From: Massiliimicrobium timonense
Lineage (GTDB): Bacteria > Bacillota_I > Bacilli_A > Erysipelotrichales > Coprobacillaceae
Direction: 5' to 3'
Assembly (NCBI RefSeq): GCF_002160865.1
Contig: NZ_NFLJ01000001.1
Coordinates: forward strand, 1 to 64,000
Length of the DNA: 64,000 bases
The stretch's first letter is position 1. Every line of letters begins with the position of its first letter. A program made the translations under genes and the position numbers. Below are positions 21,389 to 61,166 of this stretch, piece by piece. Under the pieces are notes generated by a model. That model ran no database searches. It worked only from the letters and a program-made list of their open reading frames with translations, and was not told where the DNA came from.

Positions 21389-22507
21389 ATGGATGCAAAC
21401 CAGAATTTGACAGCGGAAATGATTAAAATAGACCCCTATAATTATACACTATCCGAGATGGTGGATGTAATTGGGGAAACCGAAGCAAAAAAGCTGTTTA
21501 AATCTATTTATAAAGGCACATCGAAATTAAGTTATCAAACTATAAAGGTGAAAGATGTTTTTAATGGTGGCGACACAAGAAAATATGCGTTCGAATTATG
21601 TGACCATTATTGCATTGAAACTGTTTGTATTCAAAGAAGAACCGGTACTACAGTGTGTGTAAGTACAATGGTAGGATGTCCCGTTGGATGTGTTTTCTGC
21701 GAATCTGGGAAAAACGGTTTTATCCGTAACTTAACTCCATCCGAAATTGTTCAGCAGATTGTACTACTTAGAGAAAAAGTCAATCGAATTGTTTTTATGG
21801 GGATGGGTGAACCACTGTTCAATTATGATAATCTGGTTAAGGCGATACATATTCTACGTGATAGGGATGGATTGAATTTTCCTACAGATGGAATCACAAT
21901 TTCAACAGTCGGGCCGCTACAGCAACTTAAAAAAATAAGAGAAGAACATTTGAAAATACAGTTGACTCTCTCGCTTCACGCAACAGATCAGAGAACTCGT
22001 GACATTGTCATGCCCCATATGAAAGGACATGATATTAGAAAAGTTGTGGAAACCGTACTTTCTTATTCCGAAAGGCACAACAGAAAAGTCACTATAGCGT
22101 ATTTGCTTATTCCGGGGTTAAATGATCGTTCAAGCGATGTAAGACAGTTAGGAAAGTGGTTTAGAGGAAAGAATGTGTTGATTAATCTTCTTCAGTATAA
22201 CGAAACATCGAATAGTCGCATTAAACGTCCAAACAAGCAGCAGTTAGTTGCGTTTAAAACAAGATTGGAGGATGCTGGCTTAGAGGTTAAGCTTAGAGAG
22301 TCCCGTGGAAATAGAATCAAAGCAGCTTGTGGACAACTAGTTAGCGAATACAACAGGCAGGGAAAGAAAACAGCAAATCGGACTGTAAATGGAACTGAGA
22401 ATTCAAACGGAAGCGTGCGAAAATCTTCATTTACAGGAAGAGCAAGTTCGAAGAGACATCCTTTTGCAAAACACAAAAATGTTGGGAAAAAGAGAAAGCA
22501 TGAGTAA
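21389..22507 (+). CDS. Cfr/RlmN-family radical-SAM 23S rRNA methyltransferase
   Basis: A 372-residue radical-SAM enzyme. The cluster motif is GCPVGCVFC (CxxxCxxC). The two catalytic cysteines of the RlmN/Cfr mechanism are present in TTVCVSTMVGC and in the C-terminal KAACGQL. The SAM motif FMGMGEPLFNYDN and LSLHATDQRTRD are also family features. RlmN methylates C2, and Cfr C8, of A2503 in 23S rRNA; Cfr gives resistance to phenicols, lincosamides, oxazolidinones, pleuromutilins and streptogramin A. Sequence alone does not tell me which carbon is used. An unusual Lys/Arg/Ser-rich tail of about 45 residues follows. It has a consensus promoter and is intact. Its stop overlaps the ABC gene start. 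Confidence 0.75.
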   Translation: MDANQNLTAEMIKIDPYNYTLSEMVDVIGETEAKKLFKSIYKGTSKLSYQTIKVKDVFNGGDTRKYAFELCDHYCIETVCIQRRTGTTVCVSTMVGCPVGCVFCESGKNGFIRNLTPSEIVQQIVLLREKVNRIVFMGMGEPLFNYDNLVKAIHILRDRDGLNFPTDGITISTVGPLQQLKKIREEHLKIQLTLSLHATDQRTRDIVMPHMKGHDIRKVVETVLSYSERHNRKVTIAYLLIPGLNDRSSDVRQLGKWFRGKNVLINLLQYNETSNSRIKRPNKQQLVAFKTRLEDAGLEVKLRESRGNRIKAACGQLVSEYNRQGKKTANRTVNGTENSNGSVRKSSFTGRASSKRHPFAKHKNVGKKRKHE

Positions 22508-23079: not shown

Positions 23080-24207
23080 TGTTAGAATAGATATATAGAC
23101 ACAAAATTTTACGAATCGGCCAAAACATGATATAATATTATGTAAATGTAAAAAGGAGTGTCTAATATATGAAAACATATACAGAGGAATTTAAAAAAAC
23201 AATTGTAGAATTATATGAAAATGGAAACAAAAACAAATCAGAATTAGCAAGAGAATATGGCACATCAGAAGGAAATGTAAGAGCATGGATTAAAAAATAT
23301 GGAAAAATAAAAACATCTACAGGAGAAGTTACAACTAATGATGAAATATTAAAATTGCAAAAAGAAAATCAAGAAATAAAAACAGAAAATGAAATATTAA
23401 AAAAAGCACTAGCCATATTCTCAAGACAACAGAAGATAAAGTGAAATTTATAGATGAATTAAGAGATATGTATGATATAAGAACATTGTGTAAAGCGGTA
23501 AAATTGCATCATTCAGTGTATTATTATCATAAACAAAATAAAGAAAATTCATATAAAAAAGCAAATGAAGAATTGGATAAAAAAATAATAGAGGAATTTG
23601 AAAAATCTAAAAAAAGATATGGTTCACCCAAAATCACAAAAGTGTTGAATAAACAAGGAATTAAAGTAAGTCAAAAAAGAGTAGCAAGAAGGATGAAAGT
23701 ATTAGGATTAAGAAGTATTACAGTAAAAAAATTTAATCATAATGGAAACAAAAAAGTGGATGATAAAAACAAAGAAAATTTACTAGAACAAAACTTTAAT
23801 GCAGAGAAACCAAGTGAAAAATGGGTTGGAGACATAACATATATTTATACAAAGGAAACAGGCTGGACATATCTTGCAATAGTTATGGACTTATTTGATT
23901 TAAAAATAATAGGATGGTCGTATGGAAAAAATATGACATCAGAATTAGTAATATCAGCATTTGAAAAAGCAAAAGCTGCAAGAGGCGTAACAGAAGGAAT
24001 GATATTTCATTCAGATTTAGGAAGTCAATATACATCAAAAGAATATGAAAAAATGCTACTGGAAAATAATGTAAAACATTCTTACAGTAAAAAAGGTTAT
24101 CCTTATGATAATGCAAGTATGGAAAGCTTCAATGCCATATTAAAAAAAGAAGAAGTAAATGTAAATACGTATACAACATTTAAAGAAGCAAAATTAGCTA
24201 TATTTGA
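23080..24207 (+). mobile_element. IS3-family insertion sequence, right end missing
   Basis: The element interrupts the ABC ATPase gene at about 23080 (TGTTAG) and runs through orfA and orfB to a junction at about 24200-24208, where sequence switches to the res gene. The last ~35 residues of OrfB and the right terminal repeat are missing, so this copy is immobile. It is markedly richer in A (AAA/GAA codons) than its surroundings. The exact left boundary is approximate. Confidence 0.75.
23169..23444 (+). CDS. IS3-family transposase OrfA
   Basis: A 91-residue HTH protein (TYTEEFKKTIVELYENGNK, SELAREYGTSEGNVRAWIKK) followed by a leucine-zipper-like helix (ILKLQKENQEIKTENEILKK). This is the IS3 OrfA layout. 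Its TGA overlaps the GTG start of orfB by 4 bp, suggesting either coupled translation or the usual frameshifted fusion. Ribosome site AAAAGGAG precedes the ATG. Confidence 0.9.
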   Translation: MKTYTEEFKKTIVELYENGNKNKSELAREYGTSEGNVRAWIKKYGKIKTSTGEVTTNDEILKLQKENQEIKTENEILKKALAIFSRQQKIK

Positions 24208-24229
24208 ATTTAGCGACAGGTATCGGTAA
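23441..24229 (+). pseudogene. IS3-family transposase OrfB, C-terminally truncated
   Basis: An rve-type integrase. The DDE residues are visible: D in WVGDITYIYT, D in FHSDLGSQYTS and E in NASMESFNAILK. The N-terminal HTH_21-like part (KRYGSPKITKVLNKQG) is present. The normal ending (a WYN-type tail of some 30-40 residues) is replaced by SDRYR encoded by res sequence, so the protein is truncated right after the last catalytic region. Confidence 0.85.
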
Positions 24230-25044
24230 AACAAGACTTATGGGTGCTTGTATTGCGTACCTTCGTTATGAAAAAGGCATTAAAAACTTTTTTGTAATGG
24301 CACCGAATCTTACAATTTATAGAAAACTAAAGGCAGACCTTGGAAATCCATCAAATTCTAAGTATGTATTTAAAGGATTGGATTTGTTTGTTGATCCGCC
24401 ACGTATTGTAGATGGTGAGAACTATGATGAATTTAGACAAATGCAGTCATTTGTTAATGATGTTACAATCAATGTATTTAATATTTCAAAGCTGAACTCA
24501 GATAGTAAAGTAAAAGCTGGACAACCTGCAAGAATCAAAAGATTAAGCGAAGTGCTTGGTGAATCTTATTTTTCATATCTTCAATCACTTCCTGATTTAT
24601 GTATATTCATGGATGAAAGTCATCACTACCATGCAGACAAGAGCTTTGATGTTATCAATGAACTTCGTCCTATTCTTGGTGTAGAACTGACAGCAACACC
24701 ACAGATTCAAAAGGGTTCAAAGAAAATACCATTTAAAAATGTTATATACGAATATTCACTAGCTCATGCATTGAATGATGAAAAATATGTTAAAGTTCCA
24801 GCTGTCTTTACTCGTAAGGATTTTAGACCAGAAGAATATACAGCACAACAGCTTGACCATGAGAAATTAAATGATGGTCTTCGCTTGCATGAAGATACTA
24901 AGAGTAAACTTGAAATTTACGCTCGTACATTCAATAAACCTGTTGTAAAGCCTTTTGTTCTAGTGGTTGCTAGAGATACTGACCATTCTAAGGAAATAAT
25001 GAAGTATATAAAATCAAACGATTTCTTTAATGGTTACTATGCAG

Positions 25045-25052
25045 ATAAAGTT
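25045..25052 (+). repeat. Target-site duplication, left copy (ATAAAGTT)
   Basis: The 8-bp ATAAAGTT here and at 26872-26879 directly flanks the ISL3 element. ISL3-family elements are known for 8-bp duplications. Confidence 0.95.
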
Positions 25053-25254
25053 GGGTAATCAAATAATTTCCGGGTGAAATTAAAAAAATTATTCTATAAA
25101 ATTATTGAAAATTTAACTTTCCGGGTCAGTTTTTTAAACTTTCCGGATAAAACGGGTAATCAAATAATTTCCGGGTGAAATTAAAAAAATTATTCTATAA
25201 AATTATTGAAAATTTAACTTTCCGGGTCAGTTTTTTAAACTTTCCGGGTAAAAC
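25053..25254 (+). repeat. 101-bp tandem duplication of the IS left end
   Basis: Unit 1 (25053-25153) and unit 2 (25154-25254) are identical except for one base near the end (CCGGATAAAAC versus CCGGGTAAAAC). Each unit starts with the terminal GGGTAATC and contains three CCGG-type motifs. Confidence 0.9.
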
Positions 25255-25294
25255 ACGAGCCTGATGTGGGTGTTGAGCTCGTGTTTTATTTTTA
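25250..25294. terminator. Bidirectional terminator at the IS left end
   Basis: AAAACACGAGC (25250-25260) pairs perfectly with GCTCGTGTTTT (25277-25287) around a 16-nt loop, with A/T tracts on both sides. It follows the transposase stop and could block read-through in either direction. Confidence 0.75.
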
Positions 25295-25311
25295 GTCAGC
25301 AAATCATCCAT

Positions 25312-26682
25312 TTATTTATGCTTTTTATATTTTCCTCTTTTTTTATCTGTTTTGTTTTGTATTTCTTTGAATGTTTTTGGCTGAGCAAGAATAACTTTTG
25401 AAGATCTTTCGCTGAATAGAACACGCTGCTTAAAGAATTCAAAGTTTTCAATGCCTCTTGCAAGTCTTTTTAAATCCTTTGGTTTCCTGTTGAAGGATTC
25501 CATAGCTCCGTTCGATAATCTGACAGTTTTATCTAGTGAAGGCATCATTACAAATGAATGTATTATTTCTCTTTTCTTATCCTTTAGAAGTTTGGCAAAT
25601 TCAATAAATATATCTATACCTGAATTTATATATTCATCAATTAGACTATCAAGTTTTTCTTCAATAGCATCCTCTGATGTATGATTTTCATTATTGAATG
25701 ATATATATTTTTCTTTAAGGTCATGTATTGTCTTAAGATTGGAATCAATGGCATAAAATCTTCTTCTGTAGGAATCAGTCGACATGTAACAGTTGAAATG
25801 TTTGTCCATTTTCTTGGGATTATCGATTTCTATGATATGATCATCATTTTTAAGAATAATCCAATCCTTGTGCTTTAAAAGATAGTATTCATCCGATTTC
25901 CTGTCATTTTCGTATTTTCTGATAAGTTTTCTAATATATGACTGAATTCTATTGATTAGCCAGGAAATCACATGAAATGAATCTATAGAAGTCTCAGCAT
26001 TAGGAAAATATCGATTCATATAATTGAGATAAGGCTCATACATGTCAGAAATAATATACTTGACATTATTTCTTTCCTCTATGGGAATAGAGATAAAATA
26101 GGAATTCGTATATTCCTCGCGTCTTGAAGGCAAGAAATCAATGATATCATGAGTAGTGAAATCCATAATAACCAATGAATACTTACAGTCATCTCTAAAA
26201 TTGGTGAATACTTCATCAATGGAAATAATTTCAGGAAACGGAAGACGATTCATACTGACGTGCTGAAGAAAAAAATTATGAAGAGAGGTATCAGAGATAC
26301 CAAAATCATCAGCAACAGCAGAAACTGATAAAGTAAGATCAGATAATTTATTAACAGCAAGATATGTAGTTACATTTGAAATTTGTTTATATCTGGAAAC
26401 AAATTTCACATGAGGTGTATGACGTTTTTTGCATACCGGACAAACCCATGAACGCTGCTTGTATTCAAGGATAAGATGAGAGTTATCCTGAAGTATAGAA
26501 TGTTTGATTTTGCGAGTATAGACATCTTTGACACGCATTTTATGACCACAATCAATACAATATACATCACACAGTCTGTATTCAAGAGAAATGATTTTAT
26601 GATTACCATCAACTTTAAAATCAGTGACAATAATATTAGGATCATCTTCTAAATCAAGAAGTTTTTTGATAAAATTAAGAAT
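25312..26682 (-). CDS. ISL3-family transposase
   Basis: DDE transposase of the ISL3 family. Zinc-binding cysteine pairs (CIDCG and CPVCKKRH) lead an HTH (LSVSAVADDFGISDTSLH). Catalytic acidic residues are probably D in IISIDEVF, D in YIISDMYEPY, and E in NGAMESFNRKPK. The first ATG (26538) would drop the CIDC pair. A strong GAAAGGAGG site (26691-26699) lies 8 nt before an in-frame ATT at 26682 with no ATG between, so I place the start at ATT, giving about 456 residues. ATT starts are rare but documented. Confidence 0.85.
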   Translation of the reverse strand: MLNFIKKLLDLEDDPNIIVTDFKVDGNHKIISLEYRLCDVYCIDCGHKMRVKDVYTRKIKHSILQDNSHLILEYKQRSWVCPVCKKRHTPHVKFVSRYKQISNVTTYLAVNKLSDLTLSVSAVADDFGISDTSLHNFFLQHVSMNRLPFPEIISIDEVFTNFRDDCKYSLVIMDFTTHDIIDFLPSRREEYTNSYFISIPIEERNNVKYIISDMYEPYLNYMNRYFPNAETSIDSFHVISWLINRIQSYIRKLIRKYENDRKSDEYYLLKHKDWIILKNDDHIIEIDNPKKMDKHFNCYMSTDSYRRRFYAIDSNLKTIHDLKEKYISFNNENHTSEDAIEEKLDSLIDEYINSGIDIFIEFAKLLKDKKREIIHSFVMMPSLDKTVRLSNGAMESFNRKPKDLKRLARGIENFEFFKQRVLFSERSSKVILAQPKTFKEIQNKTDKKRGKYKKHK

Positions 26683-26871
26683 GGTGAAAACCTCCTTTCA
26701 AACAGATAATTTAAGCTGACACTAGAATTATAATATGAAAGGAAAAAAGGGAGAATAGCAACATGCTTTCTCCCTTAAATTTCACCCGGAAAGTCAATAA
26801 AGAGCACCCGGAAAGTTACACCCGTAAAGTTTGGCTTAAATTTCCGGGACCCGGAAAAAATTTGAATACCC

Positions 26872-26879
26872 ATAAAGTT
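26872..26879 (+). repeat. Target-site duplication, right copy (ATAAAGTT)
   Basis: Exact copy of 25045-25052 at the right border of the ISL3 element; the res frame resumes at 26880. Confidence 0.95.
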
Positions 26880-28628
26880 ATGGAAATCAACTCTGCACAG
26901 CGAGGAGCTGAGAAGGACGAAAATATTGAACAGCTGTTGTCGTTAGAAAATCCGGAGAATAAGATTGAAATTGTTATTCATGTTAATATGCTGAAAGAAG
27001 GATGGGATGTAACAAACCTTTATACGATTATCCCATTGCGAGCATCAGCTTCTGAGACTTTAACAGAGCAGACAATTGGACGTGGACTTCGTCTTCCATA
27101 TGGTGAACGCACTGGTGTTGATGAGGTTGACCGTTTATCTATTGTGAGCCACGATAAGTATGAAGCTATTATAAATTTAGCAAATGATCCGGAATCACTT
27201 GTTAGAAAAGTATATTATATTGACGAAACCGAGACTCAAACAGAAGGTCCAAAAGAAACAATTGAAATGCCAACTACTTACGACCATATTGTTGAAGATG
27301 TAAGTTTTACAGAGCAATTAGCAATGACATTGATGGAGACTCCTACCTATTCTGTTACTACAGAACAGGAAAAACCAAAAGTGGAAGAACAGGTAAAAGA
27401 AGTCGCTCAGTTTGTTGCTTCATATACTTCAAAGAGTGTTACCGAGTTAAATCGTCAGGTTAAAACTTTTAATGCTGTAAAAGACCCGGAAATACGAGAA
27501 ACTATTCACAAGACTGTTGTAGCCGAAACAATCAGACAGTTTCCACACATGAATTTGCAACCGGAAACATTGACATCAGTTGTTGAAAAAGCAATCGAAA
27601 CTTGTGTTCAAGCATTAACGGATTGCATTATTCCGATTCCTCAAACTGTTGTTCAACCTTTTAATGAAGTAAAACAAGGATTTGTAGATTTTGACTTGGA
27701 AACAAGAAGCATGAATTGGCATCCATCAAGTCAATCTATGGTTGGAACTGAACTTCGTGAAGGTGGAGAAACTTTTGAACATAATCCTGAGATAGCGGCG
27801 ACCACAAGGGTGGATTCGGCTGAAAACGAGATTGTAAGACATATCATCGTTCATGAAAATGTAGATTATTCTGCTTGTGCCGATTTACTTTATAAACTTG
27901 TCGGTGAAGCAAAGGCTCATTTCTGTACCTACTTATCAGAAGAAGACGCAGTAGAGGTTATGTATCAGCGTCAAACAACTATTGCCGATTTAATTTATTC
28001 TCAAATGATGCAACACTTTTATACAAATGAAGTTAAGTATCGTGCTACAGAAATGCGACCATTTTCTCGTATCGAAACAGGATTTGGTGGCAAAATTAAA
28101 TCTGATGAAATATACGACTTAAGAGCAACTATGCCAGCAAGTGAAGTTCGTTCGAAGGTATTTAATGGATTTAAAAAAGCTTGCCATACATTATACAAAT
28201 TTGACAGTGATACAGAACGCAAATTTGCAATTATTTTAGAGAATGATAAAACAGTAAATAAATGGATGAGACCTTCACCAAAGCAGTTCAATATTTATTA
28301 CGGTCCGGGTGGTATGAATAGATATGAACCTGACTTCATTGTAGAAACCGATAATGATATTTTTATGATTGAGACAAAAGCAAATAACGAGCTTAAGAGT
28401 AAAGATGTCATTGAAAAAGCAAAGGCTGCGAGAGAATATTGCAAAGCCGTTTCCGAATGGAATGCTGAAAATGAAGGTAAACCTTGGACTTATGTATTAA
28501 TTTCACACGATGAAGTACGCTTGAATTCTAGTTTTAAATACTTAATTGATAATAGAGTTCAATATGAACAAATGGAAATGTAAAACATCAATCGTCTTAA
28601 ACAAAAAACATATAGAAGGAGGAGCCAT

Positions 28629-33177: not shown

Positions 33178-33771
33178 CTAGAAAGTTGTTTTGCAAAACA
33201 ATACTTTTCCAATGATTTTGATATTATGTTTAGATACCTCTTTTGGATTGAATACTTTAGTTTCATAAGATGAGTTGCTAGGAATAAGAGCAATTTCATC
33301 TTTTCTTTTTTCATAAAATTTGATGGTAACTTCATCGTCAACGCAAACGACTGCAATGTCACCATTTCTCACAACATTAGTTGCTTTTACATAAACAAGA
33401 CTTCCTTCAATGATTCCAGAATCTTTCATAGAATCACCTTTTACTTTCAGAAAAAAATCACCTGATTTGTATTCTTCGGAAGAAACGATTTCTTCTCCAA
33501 GATAGTCTTGATCAAGAAACATGTCATAACCAGCTTTGACCATTCCAAGAACTGGTTTTTTTAAATCTACGACTGTACCTTGTAAAAAAGATTGAACATC
33601 AAATCCCATGATACTGCTCATTCTCTGTGCGGTATCATCTTGAAGACTTTTAATTTCTCCTCTCAGCCATCTGCATACAGTATTATGAGAAACACCAAAC
33701 TGTTCTGCCAATTCTTTGTTGTTCATATGATAACGATTTTTATATTCCTTGATAATATCTTTAAGTTCCAT
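33178..33771 (-). CDS. XRE-S24 (LexA/CI-like) self-cleaving repressor, ICE copy
   Basis: A 197-residue repressor. Residues 1-60 form an XRE HTH (NKELAEQFGVSHNTVCRWLR); residues 75-195 form an S24 peptidase. The autocleavage bond is A80-G81 (VKAGYD), the catalytic Ser S114 (KGDSMKDSG) and the Lys K151 (VTIKFYEK). Such proteins cleave themselves upon RecA activation and derepress targets. It is divergent from the Y-family polymerase gene, with an inverted repeat (33851-33879) between them, so SOS-like control of that polymerase is the natural inference. Its paralogue at 59239-59835 shares the same layout and catalytic spacing. Confidence 0.9.
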   Translation of the reverse strand: MELKDIIKEYKNRYHMNNKELAEQFGVSHNTVCRWLRGEIKSLQDDTAQRMSSIMGFDVQSFLQGTVVDLKKPVLGMVKAGYDMFLDQDYLGEEIVSSEEYKSGDFFLKVKGDSMKDSGIIEGSLVYVKATNVVRNGDIAVVCVDDEVTIKFYEKRKDEIALIPSNSSYETKVFNPKEVSKHNIKIIGKVLFCKTTF

Positions 33772-33850
33772 AATATCAATCCTTTCTTGAATTTTATTAT
33801 ATAGTATTATGACACCAATTTAAAGGGTTTAAGTAAATAATATAATCAAA

Positions 33851-33879
33851 ATATACATAAAGGTGTTGATTATGTATAT
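33851..33879. promoter_or_regulatory. Inverted-repeat operator between S24 repressor and Y-polymerase
   Basis: ATATACATAA (33851-33860) and TTATGTATAT (33870-33879) are perfect 10-bp arms separated by AGGTGTTGA. The core CATAAA, GTTGA, TATG recurs at the chromosomal S24 module (59910-59937), which supports operator function. Confidence 0.65.
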
Positions 33880-33920
33880 TTTATGTGTTTATAATAATAG
33901 CACTGAAGGAGTTGATGGTA

Positions 33921-35174
33921 ATGAGTAATATATATCTTTGTATTGATTTAAAGAGTTTTTATGCAAGTGTAGAATGTGTTGAAAGAGGTTTAGATCCCTT
34001 CGAGATTAATCTAGTAGTTGCTGACCCAACAAGAGGAAATGGTGCTATCACATTAGCTGCTACTCCAGCTATTAAAAAACATGGTGTTAAGAGCAGAGGT
34101 AGAATTTATGAGATACCAAAAGATATTGAATACATTACTGCTTCACCAAGAATGAGCTTATATATGAAATATTCTGCTAAGATCTATGGTATTTTTTTGA
34201 AGTATATTTCAAAAGACGATATTCATGTCTATTCCATTGATGAGTCTTTTTTGGATATTACATCTTATACGTCAATGTATCAGATGAATCCAAAACAAAT
34301 AGCACAAATGATACTAAATGATATTTTCAATGAAACAGGAATAACTGCCACAGTAGGCATTGGAACAAATTTATATTTGGCTAAAATTGCTCTTGATATC
34401 ACTGCGAAACATGCTAAAGACAATATGGGATATCTTGATGAAGATTTGTATAAACAGTTATTGTGGCATCATAAGCCATTAACAGATTTTTGGATGATTG
34501 GGCCAGGTACTGCCAAGCGATTAGGTATGCTTGGTATTGATGATATGTATGGTATTGCTCATTATCCAGAAAAAATACTTTATAAATTATTTGGAATCAA
34601 TGCAGAATACTTGATAGATCATTCTAAAGGGATTGAACCGGTTAGAATTTCTGATATAAAAGCATATAAACCAAAGACAAATTCTGTTTCAAATTCCCAG
34701 ATATTATTTGAGGATTACAATTACAAAGATGCTTTTTTAATTATGAAAGAAATGGTGGAATCTAATGTGCTGACATTAACTGAAAAGCATTTGGTAACAA
34801 ATCATATCAGCTTGTATATAGGCTATTCAAAAAATGTCATTAAAGCATCACATGGGAGTTGCAAAATTTCTGTTACTACAAACTCATATAAAAGATTGCT
34901 TGAGGAGTTTGTACGATTATATAAAAGAATTGTTAATCCAAATTATCCAATCAGACAGATTGGTATATCCTTTGGAAACGTTGTAGATGAAGTTTATGAG
35001 CAGTACGATTTGTTTACTGATATTGAGGAACTTGAAAAAGAGAAAAGAGTACAAGCTGCACTTGTTGAAATACGATTAAAGTATGGTAAAAATGCTGTTT
35101 TAAAAGGGATGAACCTCGAAGAAAAAGCGACACAAAGAAAACGTAATACATTGGTAGGTGGTCATAATGCCTAA
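33921..35174 (+). CDS. Y-family DNA polymerase (UmuC/ImpB-like)
   Basis: A 417-residue translesion polymerase. The first catalytic Asp lies in YLCIDLKSFYASVE (D9) and the second pair in YSIDESFLDIT (D107, E108). Helix-hairpin-helix sequence (IGPGTAKRLGMLGI) and a little-finger domain follow, ending QYDLF, a clamp-binding-like motif. AAGGAG at 33906-33911 fits ATG 33915 or 33921; 33921 gives the usual MSNIYLCIDL start. The yolD gene overlaps its 3' end. It is divergent from an S24 repressor, so it is probably a damage-induced mutagenic polymerase carried by the ICE. Confidence 0.92.
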   Translation: MSNIYLCIDLKSFYASVECVERGLDPFEINLVVADPTRGNGAITLAATPAIKKHGVKSRGRIYEIPKDIEYITASPRMSLYMKYSAKIYGIFLKYISKDDIHVYSIDESFLDITSYTSMYQMNPKQIAQMILNDIFNETGITATVGIGTNLYLAKIALDITAKHAKDNMGYLDEDLYKQLLWHHKPLTDFWMIGPGTAKRLGMLGIDDMYGIAHYPEKILYKLFGINAEYLIDHSKGIEPVRISDIKAYKPKTNSVSNSQILFEDYNYKDAFLIMKEMVESNVLTLTEKHLVTNHISLYIGYSKNVIKASHGSCKISVTTNSYKRLLEEFVRLYKRIVNPNYPIRQIGISFGNVVDEVYEQYDLFTDIEELEKEKRVQAALVEIRLKYGKNAVLKGMNLEEKATQRKRNTLVGGHNA

Positions 35175-59230: not shown

Positions 59231-59243
59231 GAATTTTTTTAAA
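59212..59243. terminator. Bidirectional terminator between GNAT and S24 genes
   Basis: AAATTCTCAT (59212-59221) and ATGAGAATTT (59227-59236) form a perfect stem around GAAAT with A/T tracts on both sides. Confidence 0.85.
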
Positions 59244-59835
59244 AATAAGTTTTTGTATAAACAACTTTTCCTATAATACGTACAGGAAGTGTTGCGACTT
59301 CTTCATTAGAAAAATAGCGATTTTCTACAAGTGGATTCGTTGCTTCCAAAATAAGCATGTCAGGTTTTTTGATAATACGTTTAACAGTGACTTCTTCACC
59401 ACCAATCATAACCACTGCAATATCACCTGTAGAAACATATGAACATTGTTTAATAAGAGCTAAATCACCATCCATAATACCAGAACCTGTCATTGAGTCA
59501 CCTTGAATTTGTAGAAAATAATCTCCTTTATAAAAATCTTCTTCAGTGACTTCTTCTTCACCCATATAATTATTTTCACCATACATATCATATCCAGCTT
59601 TTGCATAACCTAAGATGGGACGTTTCAAATGAATAGAAGTACCTTTGATGATAGGTTCTACATCATAACCTAAAAGATCGTTTAAACGTTTAAGTGTTTC
59701 ATCTTGAATACGTTTGACATCACCAGAAATCCAACGACTGACGGTTGATTTTGTTACACCAAGCTTTTGAGCAATTTCATCATTTGTTAACTGGAATCTA
59801 TATTTATAATCTTTAATAATATCTTTCAGTTCCAT
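59239..59835 (-). CDS. XRE-S24 (LexA/CI-like) self-cleaving repressor, chromosomal copy
   Basis: A 198-residue paralogue of the ICE repressor at 33178-33771, sharing MELKDIIK at the start, HTH (NDEIAQKLGVTKSTVSRWIS), cleavage bond A80-G81 (AKAGYD), catalytic S114 (QGDSMTGSG) and Lys (about K152, VTVKRII). It is divergent from a Y-family-polymerase-like gene, with an inverted repeat between them. This suggests a damage-responsive switch parallel to the ICE module. Confidence 0.9.
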   Translation of the reverse strand: MELKDIIKDYKYRFQLTNDEIAQKLGVTKSTVSRWISGDVKRIQDETLKRLNDLLGYDVEPIIKGTSIHLKRPILGYAKAGYDMYGENNYMGEEEVTEEDFYKGDYFLQIQGDSMTGSGIMDGDLALIKQCSYVSTGDIAVVMIGGEEVTVKRIIKKPDMLILEATNPLVENRYFSNEEVATLPVRIIGKVVYTKTYF

Positions 59836-59909
59836 AGTATTCCTCCTATATGCATATTATAATATAAAATACATCAAAAATAAATAAAAAACAAAAAAAT
59901 ATAAAAGAA

Positions 59910-59937
59910 GTTGCATAAAATAGTTGAAATATGCAAC
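59910..59937. promoter_or_regulatory. Inverted-repeat operator of the chromosomal S24 module
   Basis: GTTGCATA (59910-59917) and TATGCAAC (59930-59937) are perfect 8-bp arms with a 12-nt spacer. Within it, CATAAA, GTTGA and TATG occur in the same order as in the ICE operator at 33851-33879. Confidence 0.65.
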
Positions 59938-59972
59938 ATCATCTATTATAATAAAAGCGAGGAGTGAGAGAT

Positions 59973-60872
59973 ATGTTAAAAACATTTGTGGGATATATAG
60001 ACTTGAAAGATGTTATACATCAAATTGAAGAAAATAAAAAGAAAGAAATGAAAAAGAGATTACATCATCAAAACTTTGATTGTATTTGTGAAGATTATGT
60101 TTTCTATACAGAAAAAATAAAAAATGTTTTATTTGAATATTGCAATGATGTCTTTATCAAAAATGACAATGATCTTTACTTTGATATGACACATTCACAA
60201 TTATTATTTGATGGGGATATGAATGAAGTCATGAAGTCTATTGCTTTTCAAATAGATAGCGAATATCATATTCATATAAATATAGCAATGAGCTTTCATC
60301 AAGATTTTGCAAAGTGGATTTATCATCACTGTCAAGATCAATATCGTATGCTTGATTATCATCAGGCTCAAAGAATATTTGGAAAAAATCTTTGCCAGAG
60401 CAAAATGCAGGAAATGAAGATATCAACAAGAGAAATTTTGACCCTTCCACAATTATTTGGTGAAGATGATCAAACAGTTTTTTCGTGCTATGATGATGCA
60501 TGTTGCATTGGGGAAAGATTAACAAAAAAACTTGTTTCACAACTTAAAGAAAAAGATTATGGTATTCGTCATATTCAAATTCAGTACTACGATGACAATT
60601 TAAAAATTTATAAGGAAGAAAAACAGTTAAGGAATTATACAAATATTTACAACGAAATCTATTATACTGTTATGCAGCTTTTGGAAAATATCTCTTATCA
60701 GAAAACATATTTTGGATTGAAAATATTATTAAGTGATTTTGAAGATTATCAAGAAAAAACGGATATTTTCAATGTCAAAAAAACATCCTTCTTAGAAAAA
60801 TGGATAAGCCTGAAACCTCATTATCATTTTTTACCAGAAAACAGATTCTTTAAAAATACAGTTGAGTTCTGA
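59973..60872 (+). CDS. Shrunken Y-family DNA polymerase-like protein (ImuB-like, probably inactive)
   Basis: A 299-residue protein of no obvious family. Read against the ICE polymerase, the N-terminus GYIDLKDV parallels CIDLKSF. NDNDLYFDMT (64-73) parallels SIDESFLDIT, with the catalytic Asp position now Asn (N66) and Glu now Asp (D67). Residues 150-275 follow the little-finger pattern (ERLTKKLVSQLKEKDYGI, YFGLKILLSDFEDY, then TDIF). Much of the fingers and palm is missing (about 300 versus 417 residues). ImuB is a known Y-family derivative without polymerase residues that works as an adaptor. Context (divergent S24 repressor) fits. The homology is my alignment by eye. Confidence 0.45.
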   Translation: MLKTFVGYIDLKDVIHQIEENKKKEMKKRLHHQNFDCICEDYVFYTEKIKNVLFEYCNDVFIKNDNDLYFDMTHSQLLFDGDMNEVMKSIAFQIDSEYHIHINIAMSFHQDFAKWIYHHCQDQYRMLDYHQAQRIFGKNLCQSKMQEMKISTREILTLPQLFGEDDQTVFSCYDDACCIGERLTKKLVSQLKEKDYGIRHIQIQYYDDNLKIYKEEKQLRNYTNIYNEIYYTVMQLLENISYQKTYFGLKILLSDFEDYQEKTDIFNVKKTSFLEKWISLKPHYHFLPENRFFKNTVEF

Positions 60873-60899
60873 TGTTATCTCGATAAGGAGAGTAGAACT

Positions 60900-61166
60900 A
60901 TGTGTGATATGGATCATGTTTTAAAAGATATATATACATCGGATACAATTCTCATTCAAGATGAAGAAATGATGCTTGAACAAGTACATATTCGTTATTT
61001 TGACTTTATGGATCATATACATGAACGTATGATTGATGGAAAAGTCACTTTGACAGATGAAGAAATTGAGGATTTAGAAGATTGTGTCAATGAGTTTGCA
61101 TTTGAATATGGTTTTATTCAGTTTAAACGTGGTATTCATCTGGCCACAGCTATTGAACACGCATAA
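60900..61166 (+). CDS. Small acidic helical protein of the S24 module
   Basis: An 88-residue acidic protein encoded 27 bp after the polymerase-like gene, with ribosome site AAGGAG. The C-terminal ELEDCVNEF-like helix and EYGFIQFKRGIHLATAIE recall the DUF6809-like neighbour of the ICE S24 gene (32735-33085). Probably co-regulated with the polymerase-like gene. Function unknown. Confidence 0.6.
   Translation: MCDMDHVLKDIYTSDTILIQDEEMMLEQVHIRYFDFMDHIHERMIDGKVTLTDEEIEDLEDCVNEFAFEYGFIQFKRGIHLATAIEHA

Follow-up and report, generated by a model that had tools for sequence, protein, structure and literature searches.

Organisation of the locus

The window is the whole 64,000-nucleotide stretch of DNA that was analysed. 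At the locus described here, a gene for an XRE/S24 repressor is divergently transcribed from the gene of a 299-aa protein, termed dY, and dY is followed by a small gene, orf88 (Table 1). The range delimited in the first-pass annotation, 59239-61166, thus includes a third gene besides the two that were named. The best reading of the dY start is the ATG at 59973, with GAGGAG as the ribosome-binding site. The right arm of the predicted operator lies inside the spacer of the dY promoter. Assignment of the upstream gene to an S24 repressor was confirmed by matches to Peptidase_S24 (2.6e-22) and HTH_3 (5e-9), both above cut-off.

Table 1. Features of the S24-dY-orf88 locus (positions are those of the window)
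Feature	Position	Strand	Basis or remark
XRE-type HTH + Peptidase S24 repressor, 198 aa, LexA/HdiR-like	59239-59835	-	Pfam HTH_3 and Peptidase_S24 above cut-off
Operator palindrome GTTGCATA-N12-TATGCAAC, predicted	59910-59937	no strand	Exact genome matches; conservation in genus and sister genera
Promoter TTGAAA-17-TATAAT, predicted	59924-59952	+	11/12 consensus matches
dY, 299-aa catalytically dead Y-family protein (palm + little finger)	59973-60872	+	
Codon of D10, first metal-binding Asp position	60000-60002	+	Alignments with orthologues
Palm remnant, dY residues 42-127	60096-60353	+	dN/dS mostly 0.25-0.6
N66-D67, at the place of the catalytic Asp-Glu pair	60168-60173	+	
Little finger, dY residues ~169-256	60477-60740	+	Pfam IMS_C 181-258; most constrained part
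orf88, 88-aa helical protein gene, 3' of dY	60900-61166	+	

The locus had also been described as the twin of a module on the ICE in the same window. This holds for the layout; the two repressors are 45% identical, the operators differ and the ICE polymerase belongs to another Y subfamily. The ICE pair (33178-35174, S24 repressor and UvrX-type UmuC) has its own palindrome, read by eye as ATACATAA-N9-TTATGTAT.

Elsewhere in the window, a type III restriction subunit-like gene (24204-28583) is present in two frames (24204-25058 and 26763-28583) split by an opposite-strand transposase gene (25312-26538), and a putative IS3-like transposase frame lies at 23441-24229. A radical-SAM methyltransferase frame resembling RlmN/Cfr (21389-22507) is located inside the mobile element, with a truncated frame for an ABC transporter ATPase behind it.

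Y-family identity of dY

dY is of Y-family origin. The little finger matched Pfam IMS_C at 6e-5, above the curated cut-off; the palm matched IMS at 0.005, below the cut-off, and the orthologue L065 was above the cut-offs of both IMS and IMS_C. Profile-profile alignment of dY with sister-genus polymerases utilizing hhalign gave a probability of 99.3 and an E-value of 1.1e-20 over 258 columns. A by-eye alignment with a Y-polymerase, in which D10 was placed at the first Asp and N66-D67 at the Asp-Glu of the SIDE/GLDE motif and a little finger was recognised, was reproduced. The single dY protein gave no match to the PDB with phmmer, and a dY profile gave a weak match to human Pol kappa (E 0.001).

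An AlphaFold model was built from four dY sequences alone. Its confidence was modest (pLDDT 63, pTM 0.48), with values of 70-89 in places in the palm, and the position of the two domains relative to each other is unreliable (rmsd above 10). A predicted fold lacking palm and little-finger similarity had been set as the result that would overturn the annotation; the best 50 PDB matches listed by Foldseek were Y-family polymerases, with a best E-value of 8e-11. By homology (IMS, IMS_C, hhalign and Foldseek) dY is therefore a member of the Y-family superfamily. A phage or viral origin was considered and rejected, with no relative in viral contigs, no PHROG match and no convincing viral structural match.

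Loss of the catalytic apparatus

Losses were read from an alignment of the dY orthologues against nine sister polymerases. Missing from dY are the fingers (a block of ~50 aa), the greater part of the thumb (~70 aa), the RecA-NT-like helix and the conserved tail; palm and little finger are what it retains. The first metal-binding Asp position is D10 in the window protein and N, C, C and Y in the other four orthologues. The metal Asp pair reads D/N, N/D, C/Y, C/N and Y/N, so that each orthologue is without at least one of the two, and the catalytic Glu has become Asp in all five. The beta-clamp motif, QLSLF in most sister polymerases, is degraded to KTDIF, KADVS, ETSLL, ESYIL and NQILC, a different form in every orthologue.

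Catalytic loss is well supported by these observations, and the first-pass picture of a catalytically altered, shrunken Y-family protein that kept its little finger beside an S24 repressor was borne out by the alignment and by Pfam and hhalign. The persistence of D10 and D67, in the window protein alone, could be taken as a sign of a minimal polymerase that is still active. The metal Asps vary among the orthologues, however, none of the five has the full residue set of an active Y-family polymerase and the fingers and thumb blocks are absent, and continued activity is barely credible.

Origin from a polymerase at the same locus

Orthologues of the S24 repressor were located in sister genera, with identities of 85-86% in G027, G032 and G033 and 68% in G006. 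In all four genomes the repressor gene is divergent from a full Y-family polymerase (PolY), followed by an orf88 homologue. The PolYs are 417-425 aa long, NCBIfam PRK03103-like and annotated as DNA polymerase IV. In the tree dY groups with these sister PolYs; its stem is very long, with 3.15 changes per column, and support for the fork is moderate only (85/97). A separate UvrX-like group is formed by the ICE polymerase (33885-35174) and a UmuC encoded on contig 25 (C25) of the same genome; derivation of dY from the ICE polymerase is ruled out by tree and synteny. Because of the synteny, the operator, the tree placing and the hhalign alignment, dY was read as the in-place descendant of a normal polymerase.

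The search for a 299-aa S24-divergent gene suggested in the first-pass annotation was positive in the five Massilimicrobiota genomes included and in 0/311 others in the order. Across these 316 genomes, the frame of every other match listed fits either an ordinary polymerase or a fragment of a contig, and most are 400-480 aa long. Named dY matches in the genome collection were all from Massilimicrobiota.

Directly 3' of the full polymerase in sister genera lies a gene for an 83-aa protein (L140:1573-1824 and L142:881-1132), which is lost in the genus of the window. This protein gave no match in Pfam or NCBIfam and may be a small polymerase subunit.

In the G033 PolY (sister genus g19, L144:1285-2535) the SxDE-type catalytic metal Asp is Asn (GGA TTA AAT GAA) and the clamp motif QLSLF reads QLDFY; the frame is open. 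The 83-aa neighbour gene is gone from this locus, and the tree branch is long (0.49 versus 0.12-0.13). In the G033 PolY the same inactivation process seems to have begun independently. A natural series can be laid out, from an intact PolY (G032), through one with a metal ligand lost (G033) and the stripped pseudo-polymerase (five species), to absence of the PolY (g11). The operator is retained in the first three of these stages.

Repressor, operator and predicted regulon

The S24 repressor has a predicted cleavage site at A80-G81, with Ser114 and Lys152, and these residues are invariant in the alignment. Within the genus the protein is 92-98% identical, with a dN/dS of 0.02-0.06. It scored 68 bits against NCBIfam LexA (TIGR00498), below the cut-off of 111, and is therefore best called HdiR-like. 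The sequence features of the HdiR/LexA-like functional kind are present: HTH and S24 domains, the Ala-Gly site, Ser, Lys and an own operator over umuC-type genes. No other LexA-like protein was found on the chromosome outside the ICE; a third S24 match in the genome reads as signal peptidase I by sequence.

Two sites only in the genome carry the exact palindrome, the dY promoter and the umuC promoter on C25, where a full-length UvrX-type umuC is followed by yolD, a gene matching PF08863. Both operators overlie TTGAAN-17-TATAAT promoters in the same layout. The other members of the genus have the operator at both places, dY and umuC, with at most 1 mismatch, and in sister genera it is found at the same place, GTTGCATAAAATAGTTGAAATATGCAAC in the window against GTTGCATAAAACAGTTGAAATATGCAAC in G032 and G033, with one spacer difference. 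Matches with 3 mismatches numbered 18 in the genome versus 9 for a reversed-pattern control, close to the control level. The operator is shared by dY and umuC-yolD. From its position and conservation the palindrome is predicted to be bound by the S24 protein, which would repress dY and allow its induction together with umuC-yolD. For HdiR, autoregulation and control of one or two umuC loci have been reported (PMC8565304). Since there are only two exact operators, the predicted regulon is small enough for complete testing.

Two further observations were made on the operator. In the one-contig genome G001 (L136), a frameshift divides the UvrX-type umuC behind this operator into frames of 112 and 306 aa, which reflects either decay or an error in sequencing; the dY gene of that genome is intact. 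Operator-like palindromes with 0-2 mismatches are also present between an MntR/DtxR-like gene and a gene for a ~480-aa membrane protein in G032, G033 and G027 (L143, L145 and L147), where they mark a possible further regulon member.

Selection on dY

dY is under purifying selection. The orthologues in all five Massilimicrobiota genomes are 45-76% identical and carry no stop or frameshift. The closest pair, at dS 0.43, had a dN/dS of 0.30, and the values across all pairs were 0.3-0.4, the wider ratios being rough because dS is near saturation beyond the closest pair; for intact umuC it was 0.03-0.11. Compared with G004, dY has 134 nucleotide differences and no stop, whereas 2000 of 2000 random placements of the differences gave a stop, which is unexpected of a neutral sequence. 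The contrast of pN with pS was significant at p=4.5e-9. All ten pairs gave a dN/dS of 0.13-0.29 in the little finger (p=2.6e-5 in the closest pair). Conservation in intact PolYs is higher in the palm than in the little finger (e.g. 74% vs 45%), whereas in dY the two are equal or the order is reversed. Invariant motifs new in dY include KEKDYG and LRNYTN. A pseudogene is disfavoured by the dN/dS and the absence of stops; the high overall rate would fit slow decay with a weak constraint remaining.

The orf88 protein

orf88 lies downstream of dY in all five genomes of the genus and downstream of the full PolY in sister genera. The structure model of its product has three helices (pLDDT 79). No family match was obtained in Pfam, NCBIfam, PHROGs or the PDB, and a YolD assignment found no PF08863 match. 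The g11 genomes (L159-L162) have orf88 at the syntenic place, in the order DnaK-[GNAT]-orf88-prepilin peptidase, but no S24 gene or polymerase beside it. Its function would accordingly be independent of dY, and the two need not work together. orf88 is nonetheless the nearest candidate partner of dY.

Proposed function and alternatives

dY is unable to copy DNA, yet it is selected and placed behind a predicted damage switch, and so probably has a non-enzymatic role during DNA damage. We favour a pseudo-polymerase co-induced in the SOS response that binds non-catalytically through its little finger and palm and modulates translesion synthesis, a reading that we consider reasonably probable. The ancestral chromosomal locus would have been of SOS type, with a LexA-like S24 repressor, an operator, a divergent Y-family polymerase and small downstream genes, an arrangement that persists in sister genera. 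In the genus of the window, the promoter, operator and orf88 would have been retained while the polymerase was stripped of active site, fingers, thumb, clamp motif and RecA-NT motif. On DNA damage, RecA filaments would promote cleavage of the S24 repressor and hence induction of dY and orf88, and the intact UvrX-type umuC-yolD, under the same operator, would be induced together with dY. dY might then hold on to DNA, or else to a small partner (orf88 or the YolD arm), with its little finger and the cleft between palm and little finger as the main contact surface. Such binding would modulate translesion synthesis carried out by the UvrX-type enzyme under the same control.

The identity of the partner is conjectural, as is the sign of the effect (help or brake), and any single choice is tentative. 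The net charge of the little finger is -1 to +2, as in intact orthologues, and the palm is acidic; charge did not discriminate between binding of DNA and binding of protein, and with no excess of positive charge DNA binding is not specially favoured. In published models the palm/little-finger region of the polymerase receives the arm of a UmuD' or YolD-type subunit (PMC12926913). dY could act as a brake or timer of SOS mutagenesis that captures the arm of YolD (or orf88) and limits assembly of the active mutasome. This version is speculative and rather unlikely; if true, a polymerase would have been turned into a decoy for the accessory subunit of its own replacement.

The main rival to the pseudo-polymerase reading is a late-stage relic under weak constraint, the locus being kept for the repressor and orf88 and dY decaying with some residual use, e.g. 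allowing translation of orf88. Fast evolution relative to intact umuC, loss of all functional motifs, a second PolY losing its active site at the same locus (G033) and the persistence of orf88 alone in g11 all argue for it. It is nevertheless unlikely, though a serious contender: frames are undisrupted in five species at identities down to 43-46%, the little finger is constrained, including in the closest pair, and new motifs have become invariant. By analogy with DdrR, dY could instead be a co-repressor or modulator of the S24 repressor. The layout is the same, with divergent promoters overlapping a repressor site and restriction to a genus (PMC7273328), and the repressor is extremely conserved. 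Against this, the repressor is 85% identical where the divergent gene encodes a full polymerase, so that no obvious change matches a new partner, and we regard such a role as improbable.

The first-pass annotation had compared dY to ImuB-type adaptors, which would bring a C-family error-prone polymerase to the clamp. A dead Y-family protein under a LexA-like repressor does recall ImuB and the iPolYs (PMC6511836, PMC12926913). The comparison did not survive inspection of the genome, in which two C-family subunits only were present, PolC (1444-aa frame) and one alpha subunit that is DnaE3-like by size (1023-aa frame); ImuA and DnaE2 were not found, and there was a single RecA-family match. In dY itself the clamp motif is degraded, the RecA-NT helix gone and the ImuB C-terminal domain missing. 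With neither the partners nor the recruiting motifs, an ImuB mechanism is very improbable.

Comparison with known systems

The sister-genus PolYs are direct orthologues of dY, with the locus, repressor, operator and orf88 in common. Unlike dY they have fingers and thumb and, except in G033, the active site, clamp motif and RecA-NT-like helix. HdiR of Lactococcus and Streptococcus is likewise an XRE HTH and S24 LexA-like repressor beside umuC, and in S. thermophilus it controls two umuC loci (PMC8565304); the window repressor resembles it and differs in that one of its two predicted target loci encodes a dead polymerase. UmuDAb-DdrR of Acinetobacter also pairs an S24 repressor with a divergent, genus-specific protein and a site overlapping the promoters (PMC7273328). 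The likeness is one of layout; DdrR lacks description as a polymerase descendant, and dY is one.

Dead Y-family proteins are already known. ImuB, of the ImuA-ImuB-DnaE2 mutasome, shares with dY the dead active site and the damage-regulon context; dY differs in its 299-aa length and in being without the clamp motif, RecA-NT, ImuB-C, fingers and thumb, in a genome free of DnaE2 and ImuA matches. The iPolYs (scDinB2, gbDinB2 and the Kyrpidia type) are also Y-family homologues with a disrupted active site; they keep RecA-NT and usually accompany DnaE2, whereas dY has neither feature of the DnaE2-iPolY-RecA systems and is far more reduced (PMC6511836, PMC12926913). In a 2026 survey, sequences without catalytic residues were dispersed or in diffuse groups, and inactive PolYs mostly retained RecA-NT (PMC12926913). 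A literature search found no dead Y-family version without fingers, thumb, clamp motif and RecA-NT, and the protein can stand as undescribed, no described family covering it. The usefulness of the known dead Y-family proteins is explained by the clamp and RecA motifs that they have kept; dY has neither of these and is still seemingly selected, most strongly in the little finger. What the polymerase core contributes without catalysis is thereby set apart from recruitment by clamp and RecA.
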